DNA from: a virus
IMG/VR virus record: IMGVR_UViG_3300009085_000053
Coordinates: 1-37,035 of that record
Reading direction: 5' to 3' (one strand)
DNA: 37,035 nucleotides
How positions within the stretch are numbered: position 1 is the first letter of the stretch; the number at the start of each line of letters is the position of its first letter. A program made the position numbers and the translations under genes. The notes under the pieces are model-generated. The model had not been told where the DNA came from and did no database searches. It saw nothing but the letters and a program-made list of their open reading frames with translations. Below are positions 19,242 to 29,340 of the stretch, one piece after another.

Positions 19242-20128
19242 AAAAAAATCTTTCAATCGCTATGATATTGATCGGATCATTTTTGGAAGTCTATTATTAT
19301 ACTTTCAGATTTACAGCGGACGGCATTCCGTGGTGGTTGGGAATAATCATAGGCGCAGGGCTTAATCTGCTTTTGATGCTTTTAGTGTATTGGAAGAAAA
19401 ACAGTCTTATGATTATTTTCCTGATTGCTTATTCTGTTATCAGTACCAGTGCAGGACAGACTTTTTCGATCATCGAGAAGCAAAAAAGCGAGATCGAGGC
19501 AAAGGTAAGTCCGGAGAAAAAGCGGATAGAAAAAGAGATTGAACTTTTACAAGAAGAGCGGGCGGGATTATCTGGCCAGATATCAGGCACAATTAAAACT
19601 CTTGAAGATCGTTACGAGTGGCAAAATACACTAGGGAAAGCGGAAAAGAGGATTGAAGAAATAGAAGGCCAGATTAAAACATATAATAAAAGTATTGAGG
19701 ACTTAACAAAAGGACAGACGATAACAGAAAATAATATTTACACTTTTTACGAAAGCCTTTTAAAAGGAATAATTGGAAAGGATTTTTTAAAGTTTATTTT
19801 TCATACAATTTTATCGGTATTCATTGCACTAATGGCTCCGACTGGGATAAAAATAATGATGTCAGGGCAGGAAGAAAAACCGGCAGAGCTGAAATCAATG
19901 GACTTTAAAACATGGGTTGAATTAGCATACTACGGGGAATCAAGGGGACGGCCGAAAGTACCGAATGAAAATATAATGCGGGAATATTTTAATATCAGGG
20001 GAATAACGTTCGATAGCGCAAAGAGTAAAAAATACTTTGACAAAGCGGTCGAGTTAGGATATATTGACAGTAACGGAAACCATATTGTAAAATATGAGGA
20101 AGTAAAAGGGAAAGGAAATGCAGTATAA
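19238..20128 (+). CDS. Multi-TM protein with coiled coil
   Basis: A 296-residue protein. Hydrophobic segments lie at ~5-22, ~32-52, ~56-72 and ~185-207 (FLKFIFHTILSVFIALMAPT). A long charged coiled coil spans ~82-165 (EKKRIEKEIELLQEERAGLS, KAEKRIEEIEGQIKTYNKSI). The C terminus (~215-290) is a soluble domain. The function is unknown; possibly a membrane effector in early infection. It overlaps the RNA ligase gene by 11 nt. Confidence 0.75.
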   Translation: MKKNLSIAMILIGSFLEVYYYTFRFTADGIPWWLGIIIGAGLNLLLMLLVYWKKNSLMIIFLIAYSVISTSAGQTFSIIEKQKSEIEAKVSPEKKRIEKEIELLQEERAGLSGQISGTIKTLEDRYEWQNTLGKAEKRIEEIEGQIKTYNKSIEDLTKGQTITENNIYTFYESLLKGIIGKDFLKFIFHTILSVFIALMAPTGIKIMMSGQEEKPAELKSMDFKTWVELAYYGESRGRPKVPNENIMREYFNIRGITFDSAKSKKYFDKAVELGYIDSNGNHIVKYEEVKGKGNAV

Positions 20129-21008
20129 AAAATATCAGCATATCGAAAAGCTAGAAAGCCAAAACGTAAGAGGAATTCTTGACGGACATTGTTTTGTATT
20201 CCCAAAAATTGACGGGACGAATGGGAGCTTATGGCTTGGTGGCGATGGGGAAATCAAGGCCGGAAGCAGAAACAGGGAACTAACAGAAGAGCAGGACAAC
20301 GGGAATTTCTATAAGGCTATGAAAGACGATCCGAAGTTTAAGGCATTTTTTAAGGATCATCCGGCAATCAGGCTATTTGGAGAATGGCTTATTCCGCACA
20401 GCTTGAAAACGTACAGGGAAGACGCTTGGAGAAAATTCTATGTTTTTGATGTAGAGCTGGCCGATGAGCTTATGAGCTTCGAGGACTATTCAGAGCTTCT
20501 TGACCAGTACGAAATAAATTATATCTATCCGATATGTGAGACGATATTACCCGAAAAAAGAAACCTTCTAAGATATCTGGAATCAACTACCTATTTGATT
20601 AAGGATGGAGAAGGCACAGGCGAGGGGATAGTTATTAAAAACTATGATTACCGGAACAAAGACGGGAAGCAGATTTGGGCGAAGATCGTGAAAAACGAAT
20701 TTAAAGAACAAAACAAAAAGGCCTTTGGAGTACAGACGGCAAAGACGCAGACAACGGCAGAGCGGGAAATAGTCGAGAAATACTGTACACAATCCCTTAT
20801 CGAGAAGGAATACGCTAAAATAAACCTTGAAAAAGGCGGATGGGAATCAAAGTATATACCGATGTTGCTAGGGAAGGTATACAACAGCATGATAACAGAC
20901 TCTATGTGGGAAATCCTCAAAGACTGGAAACATCCCACGATCGACTTTAAAGAGCTTCAAAGGTTTATTAATATCAAGATCAAAGAAATCAAAAGCGAGG
21001 TGTTTTGA
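20118..21008 (+). CDS. RNA ligase (nucleotidyltransferase)
   Basis: A 296-residue protein. Motif I is FPKIDGTNG with Lys30 as the AMP acceptor. SRNRE (~51-55), FGEWLIP, FYVFDV (~108-113, motif III/IIIa), GEGIVIKNYDY (motif IV) and WAKIVKNEFKE (motif V) follow in order. This fits the Rnl2-like family. It may repair tRNA or other RNA cut by host nucleases. No polynucleotide kinase gene is seen in the window. SD AAAGGAAA upstream. Confidence 0.85.
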   Translation: MQYKKYQHIEKLESQNVRGILDGHCFVFPKIDGTNGSLWLGGDGEIKAGSRNRELTEEQDNGNFYKAMKDDPKFKAFFKDHPAIRLFGEWLIPHSLKTYREDAWRKFYVFDVELADELMSFEDYSELLDQYEINYIYPICETILPEKRNLLRYLESTTYLIKDGEGTGEGIVIKNYDYRNKDGKQIWAKIVKNEFKEQNKKAFGVQTAKTQTTAEREIVEKYCTQSLIEKEYAKINLEKGGWESKYIPMLLGKVYNSMITDSMWEILKDWKHPTIDFKELQRFINIKIKEIKSEVF

Positions 21009-21527: not shown

Positions 21528-21992
21528 ATGCCGAGTGAAGAAGGATACAAAAACTTAATACCAATTAAAAAAGGACAGAAAGCACCGGCAGGAGCAGGCA
21601 GAAAACCTTCACACTTAAAAAGATATTTAAAAGAAAACAATATAGGAACGGCAGACGTTCGCGCAATATTGGGCGGGATACTTGTAGATTGTAAATCTAT
21701 AGACGATATGAAAGCCAAGATTGCTGACCCTAATGTGCCGCCGATTATAAAGATTCCCTTGATATCTATGGTCAAGGAAATGTCGAACGGTAAGATGACG
21801 GCTTATCAATTTCTTATACAATACGGTTACGGTATGCCAAAGCAAGAGATTGAAACGAAGTCGACTATTGACGACGTGGCAAAGATGACACCGGAACAAC
21901 GGGCAGAAATGGAAAAGCAACTATTGTCACAGCTTGTAAAAGATAATAAGGAAACAATAAAGGGGTTATTGGATGCAGACGATACAGATTAA
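21528..21992 (+). CDS. terS: Terminase small subunit
   Basis: A 154-residue protein. The N-terminal KKGQKAPAGAGRKPSHLKRY is the 'GxxxPAGxGRK' start seen in many phage small terminases. A helical core follows, with PQQ-free helices and an acidic C terminus (RAEMEKQLLSQLVKDNKETI...). It would bind pac or cos DNA and load the large subunit. It overlaps the next gene by 20 nt. Confidence 0.72.
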   Translation: MPSEEGYKNLIPIKKGQKAPAGAGRKPSHLKRYLKENNIGTADVRAILGGILVDCKSIDDMKAKIADPNVPPIIKIPLISMVKEMSNGKMTAYQFLIQYGYGMPKQEIETKSTIDDVAKMTPEQRAEMEKQLLSQLVKDNKETIKGLLDADDTD

Positions 21993-23226
21993 ATGCCAAG
22001 GCGCAGGAGTTTTGTCACTAGCAGAACTGGACAATATACAAGGCGATTTAAAAAAGCTATCAAAAGAGAACCTTGAAAAGCTGAAAAAAAATATATTGTT
22101 AAACGGGTTTATAGCTCCAATTTTTATATGGAATAATGGAACTAGCAATTTTGTGCTTGACGGCAATCAAAGGACTACTGCATTAAAGTCATTAGAAGCC
22201 GATGGATATGAAATTCCATTGTTGCCGATTGATTATATCGACGCACAGGACGAAGCCGAAGCCCGCAGAATGCTTTTGAGCATTACAAGTCAGTATGGGG
22301 AATTTGACAAAGGCCAGCTTGATGAGTGGTTGAGTGGGATTGATGATGAGATGAAAGACTGTCTTTCGTTGATTGACAGTATAACGGACAGGGCAAAAGA
22401 AACAAAAAATGATGATGAAATAGAAGAGCCAAAAGAATCAATCTGTCAAACAGGACAGATTTGGAAGCTTGGGAGGCATAGGTTATTATGTGGTGACTCT
22501 GGAAAAGAGGAAAATATTATAAAATTATTTGAAGGAAAAAAACCATCCATAGTTTTTACAGACCCGCCATACGGTGTTTCCATAGGAGATAAAAACAGAT
22601 TTCTTGATGAATTTCAAGAATCAGGACGGGTAAAAACGAACATTGAAAACGACACAAAGACACCAGAAGAATTGAAAAAAATATTGACGCCCATATTTAG
22701 TCTTGCAAAAAAATATTGTTCTGATGATTGCACTTTTTTTATGACAGCTCCGCAAGGCGGCGAGCTTTGCATGATGATGATGATGATGATGGGCGACGCT
22801 GGGCTTCCGATCCGTCATGTTTTAATGTGGTACAAGAATTCTCCGACATTCAGTTTAGGGAGACTCGATTACGATTATCAGCATGAGCCAATTCTTTTAA
22901 CATGGGGAAAGAAACACAAACGGCCAATGAACGGAACGCATAAAACAAGCGTGTGGAAAGTTGACAAACCAAGATCGTCAAAAGAGCATCCAACGATGAA
23001 GCCTACAGAATTATATGAAAACGCATATCTGAATAATTCTGATAAAAATGACATCGTATACGAACCATTCGCAGGATCGGGGACAGCTTTTTTGGCTGCA
23101 GAAAAAACAGAGAGAACTTGTTATGGAGTAGAGCTCGATCCTCATTATTGCGATGTTATAATAAATAGATATAAAAAATGGTGTGATGAAAATAATATAC
23201 AAGCAGAAGTATCACTCATAGAATGA
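21973..23226 (+). CDS. ParB-like / DNA adenine methyltransferase fusion
   Basis: A 417-residue protein. Residues ~13-100 are a ParB N-terminal-type domain (FIAPIFIWNNGTSNFVLDGN, QRTTAL, DGNQR 63-67). After a linker comes a beta-class N6-adenine methylase: GDSGKEENIIKLF, catalytic TDPPYGV (~197-203), ATG-encoded run of seven Met (~267-273), then YEPFAGSGTAFLAAE (~356) and GVELDPHYCDVII for SAM. Fusions of this type often sit beside phage terminases. The ParB-like part may recognise the DNA or act as an NTP-binding regulator. ATGA overlap with the large terminase. Confidence 0.88.
   Translation: MQTIQIKCQGAGVLSLAELDNIQGDLKKLSKENLEKLKKNILLNGFIAPIFIWNNGTSNFVLDGNQRTTALKSLEADGYEIPLLPIDYIDAQDEAEARRMLLSITSQYGEFDKGQLDEWLSGIDDEMKDCLSLIDSITDRAKETKNDDEIEEPKESICQTGQIWKLGRHRLLCGDSGKEENIIKLFEGKKPSIVFTDPPYGVSIGDKNRFLDEFQESGRVKTNIENDTKTPEELKKILTPIFSLAKKYCSDDCTFFMTAPQGGELCMMMMMMMGDAGLPIRHVLMWYKNSPTFSLGRLDYDYQHEPILLTWGKKHKRPMNGTHKTSVWKVDKPRSSKEHPTMKPTELYENAYLNNSDKNDIVYEPFAGSGTAFLAAEKTERTCYGVELDPHYCDVIINRYKKWCDENNIQAEVSLIE
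22771..22791 (+). repeat. (ATG)7 trinucleotide repeat
   Basis: Seven perfect ATG units in frame, encoding a Met run between methylase motifs IV and I. Length change would add or remove Met without shifting the frame. Confidence 0.95.
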
Positions 23227-26029: not shown

Positions 26030-27982
26030 ATGGGATCAAAGGGAATGACTCCGAAAGAATACCGCGCAATCTTTACTGGATTACGCAAGACAATGGGAAC
26101 TCTTACAGAAATTCAGAGGAAAAACCTTTTAAGAATTTATCAAGAAGCGGCAAAAGAAGCAGGGACAACACTTGCCAGTATTGCAGACCGTGGCGTCAGT
26201 ATTGAGAAACTACAGCTCGAAGCAATGACGGAACTTTTAAAAAAAAGCGCGCAGATGGTAGCCGACGGAACGAATAAAGTAACTTTATCATTATTGAAAG
26301 ATGGATTTTCAAAGATAGGCGGAGCGCAACAGGATTTATTTAGCACGATAGCGGACAGGGCAGGATTAAAAATCAGCGGACTCGATACAATGACGATGGC
26401 AATCAATAACAGACTGATAGCCGCGACAGTAAATAGGACTTATGCCGACGGGTACACGTATTCGCAAAAGGTTTGGGGACAATTCGATGCGAATGGCCGG
26501 CCGATCGGAGTATATGGGGATTGGGTAAACAAGATAAAAAATATTTATAACCTTGGAGCGGCACAAGGGATTGATCCGGTACAGATTGCTCGAGACTTAG
26601 AAAAATATGTCACGTCAACAGACGGGAAACAATTCTTTACAGAGGGACGATGGGGAAAGCTTGTAGCAGGAACAGAAGATTATATCCGCAGGATAGGAAC
26701 AACAGGACCGGATTATCGGGCAATGAGAATTGTCCGCTCTGAAATGTATTCAAGTTTACAAACTGCGGCGATTGAATTCGGGCGTAGCAATGTCGGCTCT
26801 ACCGGCATGTACCGATGGGTTATGCAGGATGGTCGAGACGATTGGGGGTGTGAATGTGAGGAGTACGATGGACAATTATACAAAGAGGAAGATGTGCCTA
26901 GTTATCCTCATCCAAATTGTCACACGGCGGGAACGCTAGTTTTAACAAGTAAAGGAAATAAAAAAATACAAGATTTAAAAGTCGGTGAATATGTTATAAC
27001 AAAAGATAAGCAGATTAATAGAATATGCGGATTTTATGAAACAAAATATAAAGGGATTATCTTTATTTTTAAAACAGAAAGCGGCAAAGAAGTAAGAGTT
27101 ACTCCAGAACATAAGCTATTTGTTAACGGTGATTTTATTACCGCGGATAGAATTCAGCTTGGAGATTATTTCCAGAAGATACGATCCAACACAAAACCCT
27201 TCTCTTTTGTCAAAGCGGAATCGAAGCAATTCCCATTTTTTAGAAGAAAGAAACTTACTTTTTTTAGTATCAGCAATGGATTTTCTCGGACTGGTATGCC
27301 AATTTCCACCATCGACTTCGACGGCCAGACATTCGTCAGGGAAGGCAATATCGATATTGAATATGTCGAAAGCAAAATTTGGGATTGGCTTTTCTCCAAT
27401 AAAGGAAAGAGCGTCAAACATAATCTTTTCATTTTCGGATCGGACAGTATTGTTATAAAACTTGGCTCTTTTAACTTTTTCAAATTTTGGCATCTTTCTT
27501 CCGGTAACGGCGGCGTGACAGGCGGAAGTCGAAGGCTTGAAGCCGTTAAGATAAGCCCGTCTAATTCCTTCCTTTGCATCTGGAATATCATATCCGGCAG
27601 AAAGAAGGCGTCTGTTAATAACATTCCTAGAGACGCCAAAACATTCGGCTATTCTTTTAACAGAAAAACATTTTTCGCAAAAAAGGTTTTGAAGAATCGC
27701 GGAATCAATGTTGATTTTTCTACTCATAATGATAAAATAATAAGCATAGAAACAGAATATGTCAATGAAAGTGTTTATAACATCAGGGTTGAGAATGATG
27801 AAACATATTTTGCAAACAGTATCCTTTCACATAATTGTGGATGTACAATCGTTCCGGAAATAATGAACATGGACGACTTTGTCCAAATGATGAAAGATTA
27901 TAAAGACGGAATCGACACTCCTGATTCAAGAAAAATGGATGTGTGGGCAAGTAAGGAAGGATTGACTATTGTGCAATCGTAG
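26030..27982 (+). CDS. MuF/SPP1 gp7-like minor head protein interrupted by an intein
   Basis: A 650-residue precursor. Residues 1-296 and 603-650 are the extein; the 306-residue intein (297-602) is removed to leave a 344-residue head protein. The extein ends in the family motif DGRDDWGCECEEYDG...PSYPHPN, joined to CGCTIVPE. In the family this is the conserved HPNCRC element, so the intein sits at the most conserved site. The gene follows the portal, as is usual. The last extein part (MDDFVQMMKDYKDGIDTPDS) is soluble. Its only SD is a GAGG ~10 nt upstream. A terminator follows at 27999. Confidence 0.9.
   Translation: MGSKGMTPKEYRAIFTGLRKTMGTLTEIQRKNLLRIYQEAAKEAGTTLASIADRGVSIEKLQLEAMTELLKKSAQMVADGTNKVTLSLLKDGFSKIGGAQQDLFSTIADRAGLKISGLDTMTMAINNRLIAATVNRTYADGYTYSQKVWGQFDANGRPIGVYGDWVNKIKNIYNLGAAQGIDPVQIARDLEKYVTSTDGKQFFTEGRWGKLVAGTEDYIRRIGTTGPDYRAMRIVRSEMYSSLQTAAIEFGRSNVGSTGMYRWVMQDGRDDWGCECEEYDGQLYKEEDVPSYPHPNCHTAGTLVLTSKGNKKIQDLKVGEYVITKDKQINRICGFYETKYKGIIFIFKTESGKEVRVTPEHKLFVNGDFITADRIQLGDYFQKIRSNTKPFSFVKAESKQFPFFRRKKLTFFSISNGFSRTGMPISTIDFDGQTFVREGNIDIEYVESKIWDWLFSNKGKSVKHNLFIFGSDSIVIKLGSFNFFKFWHLSSGNGGVTGGSRRLEAVKISPSNSFLCIWNIISGRKKASVNNIPRDAKTFGYSFNRKTFFAKKVLKNRGINVDFSTHNDKIISIETEYVNESVYNIRVENDETYFANSILSHNCGCTIVPEIMNMDDFVQMMKDYKDGIDTPDSRKMDVWASKEGLTIVQS
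27116..27727 (-). CDS. Antisense homing endonuclease (Vsr/DUF559-like, EDxHD type) inside the intein
   Basis: A 203-residue ORF on the minus strand. An N-terminal HTH (~22-44, SVKRIAECFGVSRNVINRRL) is followed by an endonuclease core: Glu98/100 (SENEKIMFDAL), Asp126 (FNIDIAFP), Glu137-V-Asp139-GGNW-His144 and Asp153 (SIADTKK), then WELLRFRF. This E...D...E-x-D...H...D order is that of Vsr-fold/EDxHD homing enzymes. Its codons are in exact register with the sense codons. None of its 13 Leu is TTA/CTA and none of its 17 Ser is TCA, since each would put a stop in the sense frame; in the 570-1205 gene 11 of 21 Leu are TTA/CTA. It has no SD, and a promoter ends 9 nt before its ATG. It is the only credible minus-strand gene here. 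Confidence 0.8.
   Translation of the reverse strand: MSRKINIDSAILQNLFCEKCFSVKRIAECFGVSRNVINRRLLSAGYDIPDAKEGIRRAYLNGFKPSTSACHAAVTGRKMPKFEKVKRAKFYNNTVRSENEKIMFDALSFIGEKPIPNFAFDIFNIDIAFPDECLAVEVDGGNWHTSPRKSIADTKKSKFLSSKKWELLRFRFDKREGFCVGSYLLEIISKLNSIRGNKITVNK
27737..27765 (-). promoter_or_regulatory. Antisense promoter for the embedded endonuclease
   Basis: On the minus strand: TTGACA (complement of 27760-27765), a 17-nt spacer, and TATTAT (complement of 27737-27742), 11 of 12 matches to consensus. The ATG at 27725-27727 begins 9 nt after the -10, so the transcript would be leaderless or carry 2-3 nt. It lies within intein block F/linker coding DNA on the other strand. Confidence 0.7.
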
Positions 27983-28080: not shown

Positions 28081-29340
28081 ATGGAAAAGAATAAAATTGG
28101 TTACGAAGTTTTAAAATATCATAATGCAAAAGTAAACATTCCGAAAGAAGATGAAATTCCTACCTTGTCAAAAATAGAAAATTTACCGGTATTCATGGAA
28201 GACAAAGAACCTTACTATAAAATCGAGGCTATCGACTTTCCTGCAAATGGTACTGGCGGGATTTACACAAAGTCTTTTTTTAAATCTTACATTAATAAAT
28301 TAAAAGAAAGACCTTTCGCAGGATCAAAGCGCGGGCATGAATTTCTGTCAAGGCCGAACACGGACTTTTACACAATCGGCGGGATGATTCAAGAAAATAA
28401 TGATGGAGAAAGCGGGACAGCTTTTTTAAAAATCTATATCCCTCAAAAACTTGATTCTGATAATTATGGATTTATTAATGACGCAAAAGCAGGGATCGTA
28501 AATTTTTCTCTTGTCACATTACCAAAAAGCATTAAGAAACGGGACAAAGACGGGAAAGAAAATACTTATTTCACAGCGTCAGAAGGTTATGAAAGAAACG
28601 ATGCTGTAGAATATGGAACCGGAGCGATGGCTCAAATGGTTAATAGTAGCAATCAAGAGGACTTTGAAAGCTTAAAAGCTATGATCCATGCCGGAAAGTA
28701 TGATGCAAAAAACAAACTAGATGGTGAAATCGTTCAGGGCGGGCTTGTAATTCGTTCCACCTTGAGACAAAAAGTCTCATGTGCTAACGGAGAAAATAAA
28801 AGCGAGTACGCTGAATTGATTTCATTAATTGATAAGACAGAGAACAGCAGGAGGAAAATAGTGAACAAAGAAGAATTATTTGAAACACTTTCGAATCTTT
28901 ATAAGAACGGCCAGACTAACGCAGGTGAAATTCTCACTTCCGTAGGAATCGCCGATAAACTTAGAAATGAGAAGGACATCGAAAATGCCGCGACTATCAA
29001 AAAACTGGTTGACTCTTTTGGTGCAGATTATCTTGAGACGATTGAGAAAGTCAAAGCCGAGAATGAAGCCAATGTTGATTACGCCGTAAAAAATGCCATC
29101 GCCGTAGTAGTCGGATCGGAGACTGTAAAAAATGCTAAGGGCGATTCGGTAGAGAACCTTGAATTTTCCAGAGCTTATGAGCTTTGCAAAAATCTCAAGG
29201 GTGATGAATTAAAATCGGCAGTTGAAAAACTTCCCGAGGATAAATTCATTAAACTTATCCGCGAAAATAAAGCAGATATCACTTCGCCTGTCAACGTAAT
29301 CAAAGACAGCGAAAAGAAAAGCGAAACAAAAGAATACTAG
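28081..29340 (+). CDS. Capsid maturation protease with scaffold domain
   Basis: A 419-residue protein. The N-terminal protease part has ERPFAGSKRGHEFLSRPNTD (His86) and GIVNFSLVTLP (Ser143), the His/Ser arrangement of phage assemblin-like prohead proteases. The C-terminal ~160 residues are acidic and helical, like a scaffold. An internal AGGAGG (28849-28854) precedes an in-frame GTG at 28861. SD GGTGGAG upstream of ATG 28081. Confidence 0.78.
   Translation: MEKNKIGYEVLKYHNAKVNIPKEDEIPTLSKIENLPVFMEDKEPYYKIEAIDFPANGTGGIYTKSFFKSYINKLKERPFAGSKRGHEFLSRPNTDFYTIGGMIQENNDGESGTAFLKIYIPQKLDSDNYGFINDAKAGIVNFSLVTLPKSIKKRDKDGKENTYFTASEGYERNDAVEYGTGAMAQMVNSSNQEDFESLKAMIHAGKYDAKNKLDGEIVQGGLVIRSTLRQKVSCANGENKSEYAELISLIDKTENSRRKIVNKEELFETLSNLYKNGQTNAGEILTSVGIADKLRNEKDIENAATIKKLVDSFGADYLETIEKVKAENEANVDYAVKNAIAVVVGSETVKNAKGDSVENLEFSRAYELCKNLKGDELKSAVEKLPEDKFIKLIRENKADITSPVNVIKDSEKKSETKEY
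28861..29340 (+). CDS. Nested scaffolding protein (internal start of the protease gene)
   Basis: A 159-residue product from GTG 28861, with a perfect AGGAGG 6 nt upstream. It is in frame with codon 261 of the protease gene. It begins MNKEELFETLSNLYKNGQTN and ends with a charged tail (ADITSPVNVIKDSEKKSETK). Nested scaffolds made this way are known in lambda (C/Nu3). It would guide shell assembly and be digested by the protease. Confidence 0.72.
   Translation: MNKEELFETLSNLYKNGQTNAGEILTSVGIADKLRNEKDIENAATIKKLVDSFGADYLETIEKVKAENEANVDYAVKNAIAVVVGSETVKNAKGDSVENLEFSRAYELCKNLKGDELKSAVEKLPEDKFIKLIRENKADITSPVNVIKDSEKKSETKEY

Follow-up and report, generated by a model that had tools for sequence, protein, structure and literature searches.

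The window, meaning here the whole 37,035-nucleotide stretch of viral DNA that was analysed (IMG/VR virus record IMGVR_UViG_3300009085_000053), carries on its + strand a phage head morphogenesis gene that contains an intein. A predicted nuclease gene lies wholly within this intein on the opposite strand, preceded by candidate promoter boxes. The features are listed below.

26030..27982, + strand: phage head morphogenesis (gp7/MuF-type) gene with the intein (open reading frame; phrog_1657, 6.6e-22)
26918..27835, + strand: intein of 306 amino acids, Cys1 to His-Asn, then Cys+1 (PF14890, 1.1e-16; boundaries from a pattern and a seven-sequence alignment)
27116..27727, − strand: 203-amino-acid nuclease with an N-terminal HTH and an EDxHD/Vsr-like (MTES_1575/DUF559) catalytic domain (PF18741, 3r3p, frame conservation)
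27725..27727, − strand: nuclease start codon ATG, opposite intein His270 (CAT)
27728..27730, − strand: predicted 3-nt leader AUU, with the predicted +1 at the A at 27730, 7 nt past the -10
27737..27742, − strand: candidate -10 hexamer TATTAT, opposite intein Ile-Ile codons (Ile-Val, reading TACAAT, in seven relatives)
27760..27765, − strand: candidate -35 hexamer TTGACA, opposite intein Tyr-Val-Asn codons, with a counterpart at the same offset in 7/7 close relatives

The window and seven IMG/VR relatives (L001, L002, L003, L004, L019, L028 and L047) form a clade of eight, in which L001/L003 and L028/L047 are close pairs. Further scans of viral contigs gave no new member, so the number stays at eight. 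The intein alignment and the frame comparison cover seven of the eight, L019 having been missed by the boundary pattern. A Hint splicing domain stands in frame in the head protein, and Cys1, the C-terminal His-Asn and Cys+1 are invariant in 7/7 sequences. By domain and residues the insert is an intein, and splicing is predicted. The PF14890 match and the boundary pattern and alignment bear out the initial annotation, which had placed the promoter inside intein-coding DNA. The joined exteins (HPN/CGC junction) align through the junction with the head morphogenesis protein of Clostridioides phage phiCD27, which has no intein, and an intein-less allele at the same site therefore exists, represented by this one distant homologue. 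The structure model of the intein, built on the seven-sequence alignment, is confident only at residues ~1-87 and 270-294, which lie outside the antisense overlap, and its pLDDT is below 50 over residues 88-269. His270, opposite the nuclease start codon, is invariant in the same alignment. Elsewhere in the window, a DNA methylase with a GmrSD_N/ParB-like N-terminal match (21973-23226) lies just ahead of the large terminase gene; matches to the terminase gave no host assignment for the phage.

The antisense product is predicted to be an EDxHD (Vsr-like) homing-type nuclease by its fold and its conserved acidic and histidine residues. Its match to PF18741 (2.5e-7) is below the curated cut-off, which the nucleases of L001, L047 and L024 exceed, and its profile matches 3r3p (I-Bth0305I) at 5.4e-7. 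The structure model (pLDDT 88.7) also has 3r3p as its top Foldseek match (9.1e-4), and the residues D126, E137, G141, W143, H144 and W165 are invariant in 22/22 nucleases. On average, pairs of sequences are 55.5% identical when the overlap is read antisense and 33.9% identical when it is read sense (7 sequences, 201 shared codons); in the flanking intein parts, sense-frame identity among the 7 is 44% and 58%. The third codon positions of the antisense frame diverge most in 21/21 pairs. This pattern of substitutions indicates that the gene under selection in the overlap is the antisense frame. Reading the overlap as a nuclease domain in the sense frame was rejected, as intein residues 88-269 are modelled with low confidence and the sense frame is less conserved. 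No terminator-like site for an antisense transcript was found in the stretch that separates the 3' end of the nuclease gene from the intein start. A tblastn search of phages with the nuclease gave weak matches only, and nuclease-profile searches of genome contigs returned 101 and 92 candidate stretches with no confirmed relative.

On the minus strand, TTGACA is followed by a 17-nt spacer, TATTAT, the 9 nt TTTATCATT and the ATG, which gives 11/12 matches to the consensus and agrees letter for letter with the site first described. The accompanying claim that this site surpasses the + strand promoters of the window was wrong, because three + strand sites (11281, 20037 and 20064) also score 11/12. 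Across the whole window and both strands, 6 sites reach at least 11/12 with spacers of 16-18 nt, where a first-order Markov model predicts 1.7 (sd 1.2). For any given start, a site of at least 11/12 whose -10 lies 5-12 nt upstream would arise by chance with a probability of ~6e-4. Two overlapping 11/12 promoter-like sites on the + strand (20037-20093) lie just 5' of an RNA ligase gene (20118-21008). The matrix used for scoring is one for E. coli, which may not be the phage's host.

Within the intein's final 140-150 nt, the top matrix site with a spacer of 17 falls on the same codons in 8/8 members of the clade, its -10 standing at C+1 minus 99 nt. The boxes are TTGACA-TATTAT in the window, TTTACT-TACAAT in L001 and L003, TTGAAA-TACAAT in L002, TTGACC-TACAAT in L004, TTGAAT-TACAAT in L019 and TTGTAA-TACAAT in L028 and L047. 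By match count with spacers of 16-18, L003 has other sites at 9/12, one of which has an 18-nt spacer and adjoins the start codon. The -10 codons are Ile ATT and Val GTA in all seven relatives. The start codon stands 9 nt from the -10 in 7/8 and 6 nt from it in L019. An A occupies the position 7 nt past the -10 in 8/8; in L019 this is the A of AUG itself. The start codon of the nuclease is ATG in 7/8 and GTG in 1/8.

In the window alone, synonymous recoding of the intein yields an equally good promoter in 11% of cases (codon-null P=0.11), so that the promoter is, on its own, largely dictated by the intein amino acids, which nearly explain it. What raises the site above the protein explanation is its conservation across the relatives. 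The codon-null P values are.11 for the window,.064 for L001,.031 for L002,.24 for L003,.015 for L004,.040 for L019,.028 for L028 and.021 for L047. Combined over all eight, they give a Stouffer Z of 4.7, or 3.9 when each close pair is represented by its weaker member, values that overstate independence because the eight members share ancestry. Since this inflates combined sums, the motif was also permuted on the same data, and the observed value was reached by 5/1500 permuted consensus motifs (.0033) and 3/1500 random motifs (.0020). The promoter offset ranks first of 194, with a conditional Z of 5.5 and a mean score of 11.4 against 3.9 for the next. Sigma70-like hexamers at 16-18 nt spacing thus appear to be conserved beyond coding need across the clade. 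Comparing the -35 and -10 in related inteins, the check proposed in the initial annotation, accordingly gave a positive result in 8/8 members, with a codon choice that favours the promoter.

Signals for translation were compared by a Shine-Dalgarno criterion of at least 4 nt matching AAGGAGGTG, applied to 38 hand-picked + strand gene starts. Such a match precedes 33/38 of these starts and is absent upstream of the nuclease ATG, as had been noted from the sequence. No convincing Shine-Dalgarno sequence was found in the clade, where the ATG of L003 is preceded by a weak AGGT match. The leader predicted from the sequence is 3 nt in 7/8 members and 0 nt in L019, and the start region is weakly structured. 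Among other relatives, an SD-like match stands in place of the boxes in L006, L007, L013, L051, L053, L054 and L056. L006 and L007 have GGAG or GGAGG ahead of the ATG. In the "HVYNL" family, GAGGT occurs 7 nt before the ATG in 5/8 members (L013, L051, L053, L054 and L056) and is absent in L014, L052 and L055. In this family (HVYNL or HVFNL), the nuclease ATG lies opposite His and the Asn-Leu-Glu (or Gln) codons supply GAGGT; therefore, the intein block doubles as a Shine-Dalgarno sequence. L013 (Vibrio phage 1.113.A) and L014 (Edwardsiella phage MSW-3) are cultured phages, and the antisense nuclease ORF of their head genes is unannotated in the records.

A control set was assembled by scanning with the C-terminal 50 residues of the intein and taking the best 80 of 260 confirmed relatives; loci were sorted into classes by searching their ORFs with nuclease profiles. 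In all, 103 loci entered scoring, 7 were unscorable (L048, L049, L067, L077, L078, L114 and L122) and 9 duplicates were removed, leaving 87. In this set, whose scan part is the best 80 of 260, an antisense site of at least 10 bits is present in 13/27 inteins with an antisense nuclease, in 0/49 without a nuclease and in 0/11 with a same-strand one. The resulting 0/60 without an antisense nuclease includes L050, scored at the wrong place (NQT, not the intein end), and becomes 0/59 without it. Below 55% GC, such sites occur in 10/13 inteins with an antisense nuclease vs 0/46 (scan part again the best 80 of 260). In a same-strand group (L064, L065, L066, L073, L076, L085, L086, L093, L099 and L127), nuclease ORFs overlap or abut the C-terminal part of the intein, a layout that resembles split inteins or fractured genes.

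Outside the clade, and with the scan part likewise limited to the best 80 of 260, 5/19 inteins with an antisense nuclease reach at least 10 bits; the comparison of scores is not significant (Mann-Whitney P=0.10), and that of codon-null P values is significant (8e-4). These sites belong to L104 and L109, which are mutual close relatives, L092, L011/L024 and L106. L104/L109 have TTGACT-17-TATAAT (11/12) shortly ahead of the ATG in a different protein context. L092 combines TTGACT-17-TACACT with an SD-like GGAGG ahead of the ATG, and L011/L024 read TTGACA-17-TATCAC-6-ATG. L106 has its site away from the start and also carries an SD-like AGGAG. The antisense ORF of L104/L109 is a Cys-rich (zinc-finger-like) DUF559 nuclease, with a DUF559 match in L104. 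Most GC-rich relatives with an intact antisense ORF are without the boxes. Loss of the boxes in relatives that retain the ORF had been named in advance as evidence against the promoter: no such loss is seen in the clade, where 8/8 keep them, but at greater distance such evidence does appear in part, the boxes being lost, though often with another start signal present instead.

These observations point to a regulatory arrangement in which a sigma70-type promoter in the C-terminal codons of the intein probably drives a nuclease mRNA with a 3-nt leader or none, independently of the head gene. The promoter would be written in the Ile-Val/Ile and Tyr-Val-Asn codons that immediately precede the C-terminal block of the intein, and host sigma70 RNA polymerase would transcribe the antisense gene from it. 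Transcription would start at the A at about 27730, 7 nt past the -10, leaving a 3-nt leader (none in L019). Because the predicted leader is so short, translation would begin at a near-terminal AUG, essentially leaderless and independent of a Shine-Dalgarno sequence. Synthesis of the nuclease would then be separate from that of the late head protein and would probably precede it, and the enzyme may cleave head genes that lack the intein, with the result that the intein is copied into them.

The boxes might instead be a by-product of the intein's conserved Ile-Val-Ser strand and an AT-rich genome, and a longer antisense RNA might then be the source of the nuclease, if it is made to any extent. 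The codon-null P of 0.11 in the window agrees with such an origin, as do the -10 bases A2, A5 and T6, which are set by the Ile-Val/Ile codons, and the many antisense nuclease genes elsewhere that are without such boxes. However, codon choice across the clade favours a promoter, and nearby conserved codons vary, the Val of VYN being GTT, GTG, GTC or GTA. The antisense gene is, moreover, under selection, and the 60 control inteins that lack an antisense nuclease all score below 10 bits (scan part the best 80 of 260), which makes a by-product origin improbable. Still more doubtful is the possibility that the conserved codons form a predicted operator for the nuclease's own HTH, overlapping or replacing the promoter. 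Autoregulation of this kind would suit the N-terminal HTH and has a parallel in T4, where I-TevI autorepression at its late promoter is described in PMC2988022, but the conserved bases fit a -35 and a -10 set 17 nt apart, and the wobble bases of the -10 are the most constant.

A different doubt concerns translation, for the promoter could be real and the start not leaderless. Starts might be variable, or a longer unstructured leader from upstream antisense RNA might supply most of the protein; related families do start through a Shine-Dalgarno sequence, and minus-strand 10/12 sites occur downstream at 29054, 31268 and 31826. Against this stand the distance from the -10 to the start (9 nt in 7/8, 6 nt in 1/8), the A at +7 in 8/8 and the lack of a convincing Shine-Dalgarno sequence in the clade, so that this version is unlikely, though it deserves more weight than the two preceding ones. 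The promoter with a leaderless or nearly leaderless mRNA is the preferred reading.

Of the known systems, I-Bth0305I ranks first among solved structures for the fold of the catalytic domain and also matches that domain significantly in sequence. The I-Bth0305I gene lies on the sense strand. Unlike that intron-associated enzyme, the nuclease described here is antisense inside an intein, and its cleavage is predicted. I-Bth0305I and EDxHD enzymes have been described as phage homing enzymes in PMC3943268. Antisense homing endonuclease genes are reported, in PMC9548176 and PMC2585584, from nuclear rDNA group I introns, namely I-DsqI of Didymium squamulosum, Dir.S956-2 and Porphyra; an antisense promoter of their own has been proposed there, and antisense interference raised as an issue. 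The present gene shares with them an orientation opposite to both the splicing element and the host gene. In contrast to these eukaryotic RNA introns, whose enzymes are of the His-Cys type and for which transcription by pol II has been proposed, the element here is a phage protein intein with an EDxHD-like enzyme, and the candidate bacterial promoter itself lies within intein-coding DNA. In the methylase insertion of phage ShiLan, an out-of-frame hidden HNH endonuclease has no detectable ribosome-binding site and leaderless initiation has been proposed; PMC11855218 treats the way it is translated as a question, and its text contains 0 instances of the word "promoter". Both systems hide an endonuclease within an in-frame insertion, in a reading frame that overlaps it, whereas that of ShiLan is on the same strand and has no splicing domain. 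The T4 intron endonucleases I-TevI, I-TevII and I-TevIII have their own middle or late promoters, according to PMC2988022. A dedicated promoter, here a predicted one, uncouples the nuclease from the host gene in both cases, but the T4 genes are intron-encoded, lie on the strand of the host gene, have a ribosome-binding site and have their promoters outside splicing-domain coding DNA. No report of an antisense nuclease gene within an intein was found in the literature searched, which took in a minority of subscription journals.

Inteins normally carry their homing endonuclease as a domain translated together with the host protein, and the timing of the endonuclease is for that reason tied to the host gene. 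Here, the nuclease lies on the other strand, with its own predicted start signals in the codons of the splicing domain, and would be uncoupled from the head gene. Both PMC11855218 and PMC9548176 ask how endonuclease genes that are hidden or antisense come to be expressed, and this locus offers a concrete candidate answer at the level of sequence. The annotated head genes of Vibrio phage 1.113.A and Edwardsiella phage MSW-3 bear unannotated antisense nuclease ORFs. On balance, the comparisons lean towards a broad class of phage inteins that would be two-strand mobile elements, with the splicing domain in the sense strand, the homing nuclease in the antisense strand and its signals in the codons of the C-terminal block, a promoter in the clade, L104/L109, L092 and L011 and a Shine-Dalgarno sequence in others. 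If this two-strand reading is true, a late structural gene carries a selfish gene that is expressed independently of it, and probably early.
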